The translations under genes were made by a program, and so were the position numbers. 64,000 nucleotides of DNA. It comes from Isoalcanivorax indicus. Its GTDB lineage: Bacteria; Pseudomonadota; Gammaproteobacteria; Pseudomonadales; Alcanivoracaceae. Every line of letters begins with the position of its first letter. Position 1 is the first letter of the stretch. The notes beneath the pieces are model-generated. The model was given only the letters and a program-made list of their open reading frames with translations. It did no database searches and was not told the origin of the DNA. The stretch covers positions 868,001-932,000 of the forward strand of contig NZ_QGMP01000001.1 of the NCBI RefSeq assembly GCF_003259185.1. Reading direction: 5' to 3'. Below are positions 59,258-63,706 of this stretch, piece by piece.

Positions 59258-59283
59258 TTTTTTCGCCCGATCAGTGTGTCTGA

Positions 59284-59301
59284 AAAAGCCTACAGGCTTT
59301 T
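59284..59301. promoter_or_regulatory. Hairpin in the mltF leader
   Basis: AAAAGCCT-AC-AGGCTTTT, a perfect inverted repeat 26 bases before the mltF start. Possibly a terminator-like or regulatory stem in the leader. Confidence 0.4.
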
Positions 59302-59546
59302 CTGCAAAAATTGAAATTTCCCTATGAATAACAATAAGTAACCGTTATTTGACGTGTTCTTGACGGCGCAGCGGGGCGTGCTGGTGCGGCACGCACTTTG
59401 GCGCCGCCTTCACACCCGCGCTTCGGCCCTCGTTGCAGACTGATATTCAGGGTCAGTTGTAACCATCCTGTCATTCGTGCATCACTGTGCGACCGGGTGA
59501 TGGATAATGGCGGTATCTGGTGGTCATGAAGAGGAGCGATCCGGCA
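59302..59546. other. Intergenic region between mltF and arsM-like gene
   Basis: About 245 bases with no gene. It contains AATAAC (59327-59332) and GTTATT (59344-59349) as an inverted repeat with 11 bases between, in an AT-rich patch that may hold the mltF promoter. No convincing ArsR-type site was found by eye. Confidence 0.4.
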
Positions 59547-60608
59547 ATGCGGGACGAGACACAAGCGCACGTCAGTGTGCGTGAGTATTACGGTCAGACA
59601 CTGACCTCCAGCGGCGATCTGCAAACCAATGCTTGCTGTGATCAGCTGCCGCCCGAGTGGCTCAAGCCACTGCTGGCGCAGTTGCATGACGAGGTGGTCA
59701 CGCGCTATTACGGTTGCGGTCTGGTGGCGCCGCAGCTGCTACAGGGCATGCGTATCCTGGACCTGGGGTGTGGCAGCGGGCGCGATGTCTATGTGCTGTC
59801 GGCGCTGGTGGGCGAGCAGGGCGAAGTGGTCGGGGTGGACATGACGGCCGAGCAGCTGGCGGTGGCCGAGCGTCACCGGGACTATCATCGCCAGCAGTTT
59901 GGTCATGCCAGCAGCAATGTGTCGTTTCGGCAGGGCTATATCGAACAGCTTGATGCGCTGGGTTTGCCGGATGACTACTTCGATATCGTGGTGTCCAATT
60001 GTGTGATCAATCTGAGCCCTGACAAGGAGCGGGTGCTGCGGGAGGTACATCGAGTACTCAAGCCCGGCGGTGAAATGTATTTTTCCGACGTTTACGCTGA
60101 TCGGCGCATCCCCGAGGTGTTGATGCAGGATCCGGTGCTTTATGGTGAGTGCCTGTCCGGCGCGCTGTACTGGAACGATTTTCTCCATCTTGCCCGGACG
60201 GCAGGCTTCGGTGATCCGCGCCGGGTGGAAGACCGTCCGATCACCATCGAGAATCCGGCCATTGCCGACCGGTTGGCGCCGGCGCGTTTTTATTCCGCGA
60301 CGTACCGGCTGTTCAAGCTCGACGGCCTGGAGCCCGCCTGTGAAGACTATGGCCAGGCGGTCATCTACAAAGGCACGGTGCCGCACGCGCCGCAGGTGTT
60401 TCGCCTGGATGGCCATCATCTGATCGAGCGGGGCAAAGTGTTCCCGGTGTGCGGCAATACCTGGCGCATGCTGCACGATACGCGGTTCGCGCCGCACTTC
60501 GACTTTATTGGCCACTTCGACACCCACTACGGCATATTCGAAGGGTGTGGTGTCAGTGTGCCGTTTGGTCAGGATCAGGGCGAGGCAGGTGCCGCGCCCT
60601 GTTGTTGA
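59547..60608 (+). CDS. arsM: ArsM-like arsenite S-adenosylmethionine methyltransferase
   Basis: A 353-residue class I methyltransferase. The SAM loop is ILDLGCGSGRDVYVLS, with VGVDMTAEQL next. The three cysteines that bind As(III) in ArsM are present: Cys57 in RYYGCG, Cys152 in VSNCVINLSPDKERVL and Cys202 in GECLSGALYWNDF; a further pair is at 30-31. The C-terminal extension (VCGNTWRMLHDTRFAPHFDF) and terminal CC recall ArsM proteins of arsenosugar clusters. The ATG at 59547 has GAGGAG ten bases upstream; an earlier ATG at 59526 has no site. First gene of a three-gene operon. Confidence 0.87.
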   Translation: MRDETQAHVSVREYYGQTLTSSGDLQTNACCDQLPPEWLKPLLAQLHDEVVTRYYGCGLVAPQLLQGMRILDLGCGSGRDVYVLSALVGEQGEVVGVDMTAEQLAVAERHRDYHRQQFGHASSNVSFRQGYIEQLDALGLPDDYFDIVVSNCVINLSPDKERVLREVHRVLKPGGEMYFSDVYADRRIPEVLMQDPVLYGECLSGALYWNDFLHLARTAGFGDPRRVEDRPITIENPAIADRLAPARFYSATYRLFKLDGLEPACEDYGQAVIYKGTVPHAPQVFRLDGHHLIERGKVFPVCGNTWRMLHDTRFAPHFDFIGHFDTHYGIFEGCGVSVPFGQDQGEAGAAPCC

Positions 60609-60644
60609 AATCAGGTTGAAATCTGTACGGGTTCCGGAGACAGC

Positions 60645-61562
60645 ATGCAGTTGATCAAGACACAGGACTGGTACCGCACGGCGCAGGATGAGCCGCGGGG
60701 GTATATTGAATCCAGCGCCCTGCGTGAGGTGTGGTTCCATACCGGAACGGCCTGCAATCTGGCCTGCCCCTTTTGCCTGGAGGGCTCGAAACCGGGCGAT
60801 GATCGGCTGGGCCTGATGACCCTGGCGGATGTTCGCCCGCTGATTGATGAAGCCTGCGAGCTGGGTGTCGAGCAGTTTTCCTTTACCGGCGGCGAACCGT
60901 TCGTGGCACGGCAGTTTCCTGACATCCTGGCGTACGCCGCTGCTCGTCGCCCTTGTCTGGTGCTCACCAATGGCACCCGGCCGCTGTTGCAGCGGCTGGC
61001 GCAGATTGAGCCGTTGGCGACGGCGGCGCACCCCGTGGCTTTCCGCATCAGCATCGATTACCCGGACCTGGCGCGGCATGAGGCCGGGCGCGGTGCGGGG
61101 ACGTTTGATGAGTCGTTTCGCGCCCTGAAGGCCTTGCATGATCTGGGCTTTCAGGTGTCGCTGGCACGCCAGTGGGCGCCGGATGAAAACACCGCCGAGG
61201 TCGAGGGAGCGTATCGGGCATGGTTCAGGCAGTATGGTCTGCCGGAGACGCTGCATCTGGTGTCGTTCCCCGATTTCGCTCCGCCGGGTGCGGCGCGTGA
61301 GACGCCGGAAATCACGGAGCACTGCATGACCACCTATCAGAATGCCGAGAGTCGCGCGCGCTTCATGTGTGCCTTCAGCCGCATGGTGGTCAAGGATAAA
61401 GGGCGCATGCGGGTCTATGCCTGCACGCTGGTGGACGATGACTCGCGCTATGATCTGGGCAGCACGCTGCGCGAGAGCCTGGGGCAGCGCATCATGATGC
61501 GTCACCACCGTTGTTTCAGTTGTTTCAGTCTGGGTTCCTCTTGCAGTGAGTTGGGTGCATGA
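60645..61562 (+). CDS. Radical SAM enzyme, ArsS/ArsL-like candidate
   Basis: A 305-residue radical SAM protein. Cys37, Cys41 and Cys44 form the CxxxCxxC site for the [4Fe-4S] cluster (TACNLACPFC), and the GGEP-like motif is FSFTGGEPF. C-terminal cysteines (FMCAFSRM, VYACTLVDDD, HRCFSCFSLGSSC) suggest an extra cluster. The final CxxC...GSSC resembles the end of ArsS, the arsenosugar enzyme, although the N-terminal half differs from ArsS. Placed between arsM-like and TVP38/reductase genes, it probably adds a carbon group from SAM to a methylated arsenical (inference). ATG overlap with the next gene. Confidence 0.82.
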   Translation: MQLIKTQDWYRTAQDEPRGYIESSALREVWFHTGTACNLACPFCLEGSKPGDDRLGLMTLADVRPLIDEACELGVEQFSFTGGEPFVARQFPDILAYAAARRPCLVLTNGTRPLLQRLAQIEPLATAAHPVAFRISIDYPDLARHEAGRGAGTFDESFRALKALHDLGFQVSLARQWAPDENTAEVEGAYRAWFRQYGLPETLHLVSFPDFAPPGAARETPEITEHCMTTYQNAESRARFMCAFSRMVVKDKGRMRVYACTLVDDDSRYDLGSTLRESLGQRIMMRHHRCFSCFSLGSSCSELGA

Positions 61563-63706
61563 ATACGCGCAAGTTTGTGGTGCTGGCGTTGATGGCAAGT
61601 GCCGTCGCCGCTTTTTTTGTGTTTGATCTGGGGCAGTACCTGACACTGGAATACCTGCGCGGCAGCCTCGAGCGCTTCCAGGCGCTGTATGCGGAACATC
61701 GTTTGCTGACGCTGGCGGGTTTTTTCCTGGTCTATGTGGCGGTAACAGGACTGTCGCTGCCCGGGGCCGCCATCATGACTCTGGCCGCCGGCGCTTTCTT
61801 CGGATTGGCGGTGGGCGTGGTGCTGGTCTCGTTTGCCTCGACGCTGGGCGCCACCATTGCTTTTCTGGTGTCCCGTGTGTTGCTCAAGGATACAGTGCAG
61901 GGGCGATTCGGTGAGCGTCTCAAGGCCATCAACGAGGGGGTGCGCAAGGACGGTGCCTTCTATCTTTTCACCCTGCGCCTGGTACCGATCTTTCCCTTCT
62001 TCGTGATCAATCTGGCCATGGGCCTGACGCCGATCCGCACCTGGACCTTCTTCTGGGTCAGCCAGCTCGGCATGCTCGCCGGCACGGTGGTGTACGTCAA
62101 CGCGGGTACCCAGCTTGCGCTGATCGAATCGCCCGGGGATCTGTTGTCACCGCCGTTGATCGGTGCCTTCGTGTTGCTGGGGCTGTTCCCCTGGCTGGCG
62201 CGTGCCGTGCTGGGTCGGGTGCAGGCGCTGCGTGTCTACCGGGGCTGGAAAAAGCCGAAGCGGTTTGACGCCAATATCGCTGTGATTGGTGCGGGGTCTG
62301 CCGGGCTGGTGACCGCCTACATCGCGGCGGCGGTCAAGGCGAAGGCGATCCTGGTCGAACGGGATCGCATGGGCGGGGATTGCCTGAATACCGGGTGCGT
62401 GCCGTCGAAAACACTGATCAAGAGTGCACGCGTGCGTCACCTGCAGGGGCTGGCGCCTGATTTTGGTATTGCCGGTGTGCCCGGTGACGTGGATTTTCCT
62501 GCCGTCATGGCCCGCGTCCAGTCGGTGATTGGCAAGATTGAACCGCACGACTCTGTCGAGCGTTATACGGAGCTGGGCGTGGACTGCCGCCAGGGGCAGG
62601 CGCGGCTGGTGTCACCCTGGGAAATCGAGATCAGCAATGAACAGGGCAGTGAACGTATCAGCGCGCGGCATATCGTGATTGCGTCCGGTGGCGAGCCGTG
62701 GGTGCCGCCCATTCCCGGCCTGATGGAGATGTCGTTCCTGACCTCTGACAGCCTTTGGTCGCTTCAGGTCTTGCCGCCGAGGCTGCTGGTGCTGGGTGGC
62801 GGGCCCATCGGCTGTGAGCTGGCTCAGAGTTTTGCCCGTCTTGGCTCCCGGGTAACGGTGGTGGAAATGGCCCCTCGGCTGTTGCCTCGGGAAGATGAAG
62901 AGGCTTCCGCGCTGGTGGCGGCGTCACTGGCGGCCGATGGGGTTACCGTGCTGACCGGCTTCCGTGCCAGCCGTTTCGAGCGTATCGATGGCCAGCAGTG
63001 GTTGCTGGCAGCGGGCGCCGACGGGGAGCAGCGGGTGGCCTTTGATCAGGTGCTGGTGGCACTGGGGCGCCGCGCGCGCACCGAAGGTCTGGGGCTGGAG
63101 GAACTGGGTATCGAGCGCACGGACAGTGGCACCCTGGCGGTGGACGATTACCTGCGCACGCGGGTGCCGAATATTCTGGCCTGTGGCGATGTGGTGGGGC
63201 CTTACCAGTTTACCCATGTGGCCTCGCACCAGGCCTGGTACGCCGCCGTGAACGCGCTGTTTGGTCGCCTGAAGCGATTCCGGGTCGATTACCGTGTGAT
63301 TCCCTGGTGTACTTTTACCTCGCCGGAAGTGGCGCGCGTGGGCCTGAGCGAGGCCGAGGCCCGGGAGCGGGGTGTGGCCTTCGAGGTGACCCGCTACGGC
63401 ATTGATGATCTGGATCGTGCCATCGCTGACGGCACCGATTATGGCTTCGTCAAGGTGCTGACGCCGCCGGGCAGCGATCGCATTCTGGGTGTGACCATTG
63501 TTGGCGAGCACGCCGGTGATCTGATTGCCGAGTATGTCCTGGCCATGAAACACGGCCTGGGCCTGAACAAGATCCTGGGCACCATTCATATCTACCCGAC
63601 GCTGGCCGAGGCCAACAAGTTTGCGGCGGGCGCCTGGAAAAAGGCGCACGCGCCGCAGCGCGTGCTGGCATGGCTGGGCCGCTATCACCGCTGGATGCGC
63701 GGGTGA
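61559..63706 (+). CDS. TVP38/TMEM64-pyridine nucleotide-disulfide oxidoreductase fusion (MerA-like)
   Basis: A 715-residue fusion. Residues 1-225 are a membrane TVP38/TMEM64 (VTT, DedA-like) domain with FTLRLVPIFPFFVINLAMGL. From about 238 it is an FAD-dependent oxidoreductase: FAD loop VIGAGSAGLVTA, redox pair Cys275/Cys280 in CLNTGCVPSK, NAD(P) loop VLGGGPIGCELAQ and FAD motif ILACGDVVG. In the C-terminal active-site motif a Tyr replaces the usual His (HIYPTLAE), as in MerA. No NmerA domain and no terminal CC, so mercury reduction is unlikely. Last gene of the arsM operon; may reduce or export a metalloid compound. Confidence 0.9.
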   Translation: MNTRKFVVLALMASAVAAFFVFDLGQYLTLEYLRGSLERFQALYAEHRLLTLAGFFLVYVAVTGLSLPGAAIMTLAAGAFFGLAVGVVLVSFASTLGATIAFLVSRVLLKDTVQGRFGERLKAINEGVRKDGAFYLFTLRLVPIFPFFVINLAMGLTPIRTWTFFWVSQLGMLAGTVVYVNAGTQLALIESPGDLLSPPLIGAFVLLGLFPWLARAVLGRVQALRVYRGWKKPKRFDANIAVIGAGSAGLVTAYIAAAVKAKAILVERDRMGGDCLNTGCVPSKTLIKSARVRHLQGLAPDFGIAGVPGDVDFPAVMARVQSVIGKIEPHDSVERYTELGVDCRQGQARLVSPWEIEISNEQGSERISARHIVIASGGEPWVPPIPGLMEMSFLTSDSLWSLQVLPPRLLVLGGGPIGCELAQSFARLGSRVTVVEMAPRLLPREDEEASALVAASLAADGVTVLTGFRASRFERIDGQQWLLAAGADGEQRVAFDQVLVALGRRARTEGLGLEELGIERTDSGTLAVDDYLRTRVPNILACGDVVGPYQFTHVASHQAWYAAVNALFGRLKRFRVDYRVIPWCTFTSPEVARVGLSEAEARERGVAFEVTRYGIDDLDRAIADGTDYGFVKVLTPPGSDRILGVTIVGEHAGDLIAEYVLAMKHGLGLNKILGTIHIYPTLAEANKFAAGAWKKAHAPQRVLAWLGRYHRWMRG

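Follow-up and report, generated by a model that had tools for sequence, protein, structure and literature searches.

A radical SAM family that may replace ArsS in an arsenosugar-type operon of Isoalcanivorax indicus

Arsenosugars rank among the main arsenic compounds of marine organisms, and to our knowledge the known bacterial route to them rests on ArsS. A 64,000-nucleotide stretch of the Isoalcanivorax indicus genome (the window: positions 868001-932000 of contig NZ_QGMP01000001.1, in a genome of 3.44 Mb) carries consecutive genes for an ArsM-like methyltransferase, a radical S-adenosylmethionine (SAM) protein and a membrane protein fused to a flavoenzyme, which raises the question whether another radical SAM enzyme can take the place of ArsS. 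A preliminary description of these genes had proposed an organoarsenical pathway, with an arsenosugar, an arsinothricin-like compound or a new compound as its product. In window coordinates, the genes are:

59547..60608, + strand, arsM, As(III) S-adenosylmethionine methyltransferase (phmmer, conserved cysteines; longer starts at 59520 or 59526 are possible)
60645..61562, + strand, member of an unnamed radical SAM family, 305 amino acids, candidate for an adenosyltransferase acting on arsenic where other bacteria have ArsS (PF04055, neighborhood, co-occurrence)
61559..63706, + strand, fusion of a VTT (TVP38/TMEM64/DedA-type) domain and a MerA/PRK06370-like FAD disulfide oxidoreductase, 715 amino acids (PF09335, PF07992, PF02852)

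We suggest, with a probability of about 0.6, that the operon encodes the early steps of arsenosugar (or arsenosugar-lipid) synthesis, with an unrecognized radical SAM family replacing ArsS. The radical SAM protein is taken as the counterpart of ArsS because ArsM is present, ArsS is excluded and the partner genes are shared. The tight coupling of the three genes reported previously stands, with a gap of 36 bases (60609-60644) between arsM, which ends at 60608, and the radical SAM gene, and an ATGA overlap (61559-61562) between the latter, ending at 61562, and the fusion gene, ending at 63706. As the upstream neighbor, a lytic-transglycosylase-like gene, is divergent and the downstream neighbor, an ene-reductase-like gene, follows after a strand switch (both named by reading the sequence), the operon consists of these three genes. 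The order ArsM, radical SAM, VTT, flavoenzyme is found complete in eight of 84 distinct loci of the family (the window, L015, L021, L023, L024, L065, L077 and L079), and is therefore not due to chance.

The CX3CX2C motif (C37-x3-C41-x2-C44), the PF04055 match (72.3 bits) and the predicted fold place the protein in the radical SAM superfamily. Its AlphaFold2 model (mean pLDDT, a per-residue confidence score, of 89.2) retrieved generic radical SAM structures only with Foldseek, the best being BlsE, SkfB and MoaA, with template modeling scores of 0.40-0.61 in query length among the 50 matches listed. No NCBIfam (release 20) cut-off was reached among the best 25 of 40 matches, and Pfam returned general radical SAM domains only; the family therefore appears unnamed there. 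The best NCBIfam score was that of an Rv1681-type family (92.3 of 380 bits), but this match is limited to residues 28-205 and the assignment was rejected. A scan for relatives, from which the best 80 of 284 were taken and which is not a census, gave 80 family loci at 55-80% identity. By their titles these are mainly gammaproteobacterial, with some from alphaproteobacteria, Methylotenera, Kiritimatiellae, Omnitrophota and Uabimicrobium, and the closest named locus among them is that of Alcanivorax sp. S71-1-4 (80% identity for the radical SAM protein). In a sample of 274 genomes of the class, five, including that of the window, encode a full-length family protein with at least 53% identity, one (G202) encodes a 38% relative, and three further genomes gave weak partial matches.

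Judged by its sequence, the protein is not ArsS (TIGR04167). It has in common with ArsS a length of about 305 amino acids, a radical SAM core at the N-terminus, a set of five C-terminal cysteines in matching order and a GSSC ending, as well as ArsM, TIGR04282, TIGR04283, VTT and flavoenzyme genes as partners. An ArsS-like C-terminal end (RCFSCFSLGSSCSELGA; in ArsS HCYGCTAGQGSSCGGAL) had been noticed from the sequence; the last cysteines line up and GSSC closes both proteins, although the similarity of the C-terminal halves is not significant. Among 38 aligned family members C37, C41, C44, C227, C242, C260, C290 and C293 are invariant and C300 is nearly so; in 12 ArsS proteins C235, C250, C289, C292 and C300 are invariant, in an order corresponding to the family cysteines. 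In contrast to ArsS, the family has the additional invariant C227, and its motifs CNLACPFCLEGSKPGD and TGGEPF read CNQxCLHCHVNAGP and TGGAPE in ArsS. Comparison of family and ArsS profiles gave 97.7% for the whole proteins, with an alignment that spans their length, and 98.3% for the N-terminal halves, as is expected of radical SAM cores generally.

The genomic neighborhood of its homologs links the radical SAM protein to the arsenosugar gene set of ArsS. Probes derived from the family loci were run over 85 such loci, 84 of them distinct (L014 repeats L024); several family and ArsS loci are cut by contig ends. On the same strand and within 5 kb, TIGR04283-like genes were found in 44 of the 84 loci, TIGR04282-like genes in 43, the flavoenzyme in 38, VTT in 32, ArsM in 19 and an MTA phosphorylase in nine, and 59 loci contain ArsM, a glycosyltransferase or both in this range. 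From 5 kb outward, on either strand, the counts were two for ArsM, zero for the glycosyltransferases, one for the flavoenzyme and six for VTT. In 14 of the 84 loci ArsM is the gene directly 5' of the radical SAM gene, in the same orientation and with matches 0-85 bases apart; L037, where the strands are opposite, and L094, where the gap is 1.3 kb, are not counted. The two genes are also adjacent in loci of Kiritimatiellae and Uabimicrobium (L046, L064 and L072). A looser count, within 8 kb on either strand, compared the 85 family loci with the 20 best-scoring ArsS loci: ArsM 27 vs 9, TIGR04282 45 vs 13, TIGR04283 45 vs 12, flavoenzyme 47 vs 9, VTT 40 vs 9 and MTA phosphorylase 11 vs 0.

At the level of whole genomes, the family and ArsS exclude each other. 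ArsS scores above its cut-off in 113 of 229 genomes of the class, in none of the five carriers of the family in that sample and in none of 39 carrier genomes reached through their loci (one of which is G140 again), that is, in 0/43 carriers vs 113/224 other gammaproteobacteria (Fisher test). A further comparison covered 80 genomes: the 43 carriers, the 20 genomes with the best ArsS scores and 17 genomes with neither, chosen by hand from the class sample. In this panel TIGR04282 is present in 42/43, 19/20 and 0/17, respectively, and an ArsM-like gene (E <= 1e-25) in 18/43, 17/20 and 1/17; a search with the ArsM of the window itself found a relative at E <= 1e-30 in 15/40. In the class sample of 229, TIGR04282 accompanies ArsS in 114 of 116 genomes (three of which have ArsS fragments below the cut-off) and the family in all five carriers, and occurs in eight of the 108 others. 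One of these eight, G202, carries the 37-38% subfamily described below. With a wider family model, the five carriers and G202 gave full-length members, whereas 31 further genomes gave partial matches at most. Genomes G051, G055 and G120 have TIGR04282 with neither ArsS nor a full-length family member; they may hide a further variant of the radical SAM enzyme, or the glycosyltransferase may serve another purpose there.

From these associations we infer the reactions of the radical SAM protein and of the fusion protein, and the final compound. ArsM would methylate As(III), probably to dimethylarsenite. The radical SAM enzyme would then cleave SAM, and the 5'-deoxyadenosyl radical would be captured by trivalent arsenic to give 5'-deoxy-5'-arsinoyl adenosine, as for ArsS, or alternatively a product with another SAM-derived group; adenosylation of arsenic by a radical SAM enzyme in oxo-arsenosugar synthesis is described in PMC12159101, which cites the ArsS paper for it. 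Adenine could next be removed by an enzyme of the MTA-phosphorylase type, of which some relatives have a dedicated copy beside the gene, and glycosyltransferases of the TIGR04283 and TIGR04282 types would build the glycoside. The VTT-flavoenzyme fusion may handle the membrane or redox end, e.g., by moving an arsenolipid or by keeping arsenic or thiols reduced. In the window genome, the two glycosyltransferase domains are predicted in a single gene of 452 amino acids, about 136 kb from the operon:

contig 1068037-1069395 (L120:7038-8396), TIGR04283-TIGR04282 fusion gene, the TIGR04283 half named by reading

Genes of the MTA-phosphorylase family stand directly 3' of the radical SAM gene at L017:7616-8476 (-), L027:10923-11768, L028:10951-11799, L032:10958-11800, L040:10618-11460 and L051:10912-11754. 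The other clustered copies are 63-69% identical to that of L017, vs at most 44% for copies of the housekeeping type, and the clustered protein occurs in Neptuniibacter, Motiliproteus, Emcibacter and genome G139. The G139 copy shares 65-71% identity with those of G279, G280, G282 and G309, and at most 44% with other matches in the panel. The window genome has only a distant homolog (37%), in a match that runs over two TGA codons.

More tentatively, and with less than even confidence, we propose that an unrecognized family of radical SAM enzymes forming As-C bonds replaces ArsS in marine gammaproteobacteria and several other groups; together with the MTA-phosphorylase-type partner and TIGR04282/TIGR04283 it would constitute a full route from methylarsenic to an arsenosugar glycoside, with the VTT-flavoenzyme possibly exporting lipids, and members lacking ArsM would capture environmental methylarsenic or adenosylate inorganic arsenite directly. 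Among the literature matches listed, no title or abstract opening was found to deal with the present radical SAM family or to connect an MTA phosphorylase with the making of arsenosugars; the type of pathway is known, and the new variants would be its radical SAM branch and its link to the phosphorylase. If a second family indeed operates in Marinobacter, Neptuniibacter, Marinobacterium and relatives of Alcanivorax, counts of arsenosugar producers that consider ArsS alone are too low, and the clustered MTA-phosphorylase-like gene is a direct candidate for the adenine-removing step.

Several results weigh against a replacement of ArsS by this family. The profile comparison proposed in the preliminary description separates the protein from ArsS, with 43.6 bits for TIGR04167 against a cut-off of 300 and over residues 23-170 only. 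The C-terminal halves of the family and ArsS profiles gave 9% (E 0.0036), which is not significant in spite of the matching final cysteines; a direct homology of the C-terminal parts was not accepted (two other radical SAM C-termini gave 0.3%). According to the preliminary description, it is the N-terminal half that differs from ArsS, and this has to be reversed: the N-terminal halves are the ones that align strongly. A tree speaks for the link to ArsS, with a reservation: among 50 rows (16 family members, 12 ArsS proteins, two of the 37% subfamily from Roseomonas and G202, and 20 other radical SAM proteins from these genomes), both the family and the subfamily group with ArsS rather than with the 20 other rows (90 in the SH-aLRT branch test), but the joining branches are long, the search was quick and the join may be false. 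Nine of the 84 loci (L030, L034, L037, L068, L073, L082, L085, L088 and L093) have none of six pathway probes nearby on the same strand, although the opposite strand carries some in L037 and L073. In the closest Alcanivorax relative (L019), ArsM and the radical SAM gene stand together and the fusion gene lies elsewhere. The genome panels are not phylogenetically independent, with many Marinobacter, and the 17 control genomes were chosen by one of us; TIGR04282, moreover, is presumably named for arsenosugars only through its link to ArsS. Finally, 25 of the 43 carriers, vs three of the 20 ArsS genomes, have no ArsM-like gene at E <= 1e-25, so that methylation of As(III) is no fixed part of the family pathway. 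The substrate may thus be environmental methylarsenic, arsenite or not arsenic at all. The organoarsenical operon proposed earlier holds in part, in that it has ArsM, tight coupling and a radical SAM protein other than ArsS, whereas As(III) methylation is not constant across the family.

The same carriers lacking ArsM also speak for a different substrate. According to this alternative, which we consider unlikely, the family makes a 5-deoxy-5-X-ribose from a non-arsenic nucleophile (e.g., a sulfur, selenium or phosphorus species) that feeds the TIGR04282/TIGR04283 glycosyltransferases, and ArsM stands beside some members only. Clusters in Neptuniibacter, Marinobacterium and Amphritea, which combine the radical SAM gene with glycosyltransferases, with or without the MTA phosphorylase, and mostly lack ArsM (Neptuniibacter locus L040 has it), would fit such a function, as would the Roseomonas relative (37% identity), whose neighbors are a metallophosphoesterase and an ABC transporter of the phosphonate type. 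However, ArsM is enriched in carriers (18/43 vs 1/17 genomes with neither), its placement directly 5' of the radical SAM gene recurs (14 of 84 loci), the two genes are also adjacent in Kiritimatiellae and Uabimicrobium, and the family excludes ArsS yet has the partners of ArsS.

Simple arsenic detoxification by ArsM, with the radical SAM protein and the VTT-flavoenzyme as unrelated neighbors, appears improbable: the genes do occur apart, with the complete order in no more than eight of 84 loci, but the 36-base gap, the ATGA overlap, the recurrent linkage across families and the co-occurrence on a genome scale argue against it. Least probable, by a small step, is an ArsL-type enzyme in an arsinothricin-like pathway, as the order of arsM and radical SAM gene is that of arsM-arsL in the arsinothricin cluster, but ArsL has 428 amino acids, its CX3CX2C motif at 194-201 and arsQ rather than glycosyltransferases as neighbor (PMC8552651), vs 305 amino acids, a motif at 37-44, no GntP-like arsQ adjoining among the window open reading frames read by eye, and glycosyltransferase partners that point to a sugar. 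No model named for ArsL was present among the best 25 of 40 NCBIfam matches, and identity with ArsL was rejected on size, layout and neighbors. Of the products considered in the preliminary description, an arsenosugar or arsenolipid is accordingly favored and an arsinothricin-like compound disfavored, since neighborhood and co-occurrence tie the family to the arsenosugar gene set.

On sequence comparison, the first gene product is a full-length relative of solved arsenite methyltransferases. With phmmer it matches 5evj at 375 bits (E 4.4e-111, residues 4-351 in the numbering from start 59520) and 4fr0 and 4kw7 at about 293 bits (4fr0, E 2.6e-86); we take all three to be of the CmArsM type, with which the protein shares full-length homology and conserved cysteine positions. 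The start at 59547 is, by reading, preceded by a GAGGAG-like stretch. C39/C40, C66, C161 and C211 (59520 numbering) align with cysteines of the solved enzymes, positions that presumably bind arsenic, and C39, C40, C66, C161, C211 and a C-terminal CC are conserved in all 26 rows of an alignment (the window and 25 rows of relatives, Methylohalomonas being included twice). The preliminary description had counted three arsenic-binding cysteines here, where there are four conserved positions. The protein stays below the cut-offs of PRK11873 (170.8 of 263 bits), AsSugarArsM (97.3 of 400) and the arsinothricin ArsM (127.8 of 500), and is therefore ArsM by homology, outside the curated subfamilies. 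The ArsM adjoining ArsS is mostly of another type, 30-34% identical in eight of the nine ArsS loci that have one; that of the ninth (L130) is 64% identical.

The third protein joins, as described from the sequence, a membrane VTT (DedA-type) domain to a MerA-like flavoenzyme. Pfam places VTT at residues 71-184 (PF09335, 81.9 bits, gathering threshold 33.9) and Pyr_redox_2 and the dimerization domain at 239-687 (PF07992, 201.9; PF02852, 103.1). The redox pair C275-x4-C280 is present, and Tyr679, within IHIYPT, stands at a position that we take to be His in dihydrolipoyl dehydrogenase and Tyr in MerA. In the CxxxxC pair, the FAD/NAD and dimerization domains and the VTT domain the protein is like PRK06370/MerA-like flavoenzymes with VTT; unlike them, it remains under the curated cut-offs of NF004991 (489.8 of 620 bits), MerA TIGR02053 (383.1 of 454.45) and dihydrolipoyl dehydrogenase TIGR01350 (385.3 of 408.8). 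A gene like it (E <= 1e-80) is present in 41/43 carriers, 18/20 ArsS genomes and 3/17 genomes with neither, and as a single match across both domains in 35/43, 13/20 and 1/17. VTT proteins presumably have membrane lipids as their substrates, so that the movement of an arsenolipid is a guess.

Upstream of the operon lies one further feature:

59258..59546, no strand, intergenic region, presumed promoter region, between the divergent lytic-transglycosylase-like gene and arsM

It contains the inverted repeat AATAAC-N11-GTTATT (59327-59349) and a second one at 59364-59406. The AATAAC repeat is not kept in the sole relative aligned, Alcanivorax sp. S71-1-4, comparison with which revealed no convincing operator, and no sigma-70-like match was found on the + strand of 59258..59546. 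Antisense to arsM and the radical SAM gene runs an open frame of 635 amino acids (59739-61646, - strand); relatives show comparable antisense frames, and these are probably by-products of codon usage.

Some further observations concern the distribution of the radical SAM family. For viral contigs at least 21 weak matches were obtained (21-36%), 20 of these N-terminal, with no close member among the matches listed. Seven plasmid records match, one of them, Marinobacter adhaerens pHP-187, at 55.5% in two pieces; this locus (L012:15001-15847, strain HP15) has no gene in the incomplete gene table of the plasmid and is possibly a broken copy. A second subfamily, at 37-38% identity, is represented by L013:9034-15994 on a plasmid of Roseomonas haemaphysalidis and by L006, the Roseomonas locus adjoining TIGR04282, DUF547, a second radical SAM protein, the phosphonate-type ABC transporter and the metallophosphoesterase. 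An RNA polymerase sigma factor gene, of the extracytoplasmic function type by reading, lies within 8 kb in 21 of the 85 family loci (e.g., L015:12762-13391) and in six of the 20 ArsS loci, some of the latter with a small cysteine-containing partner.

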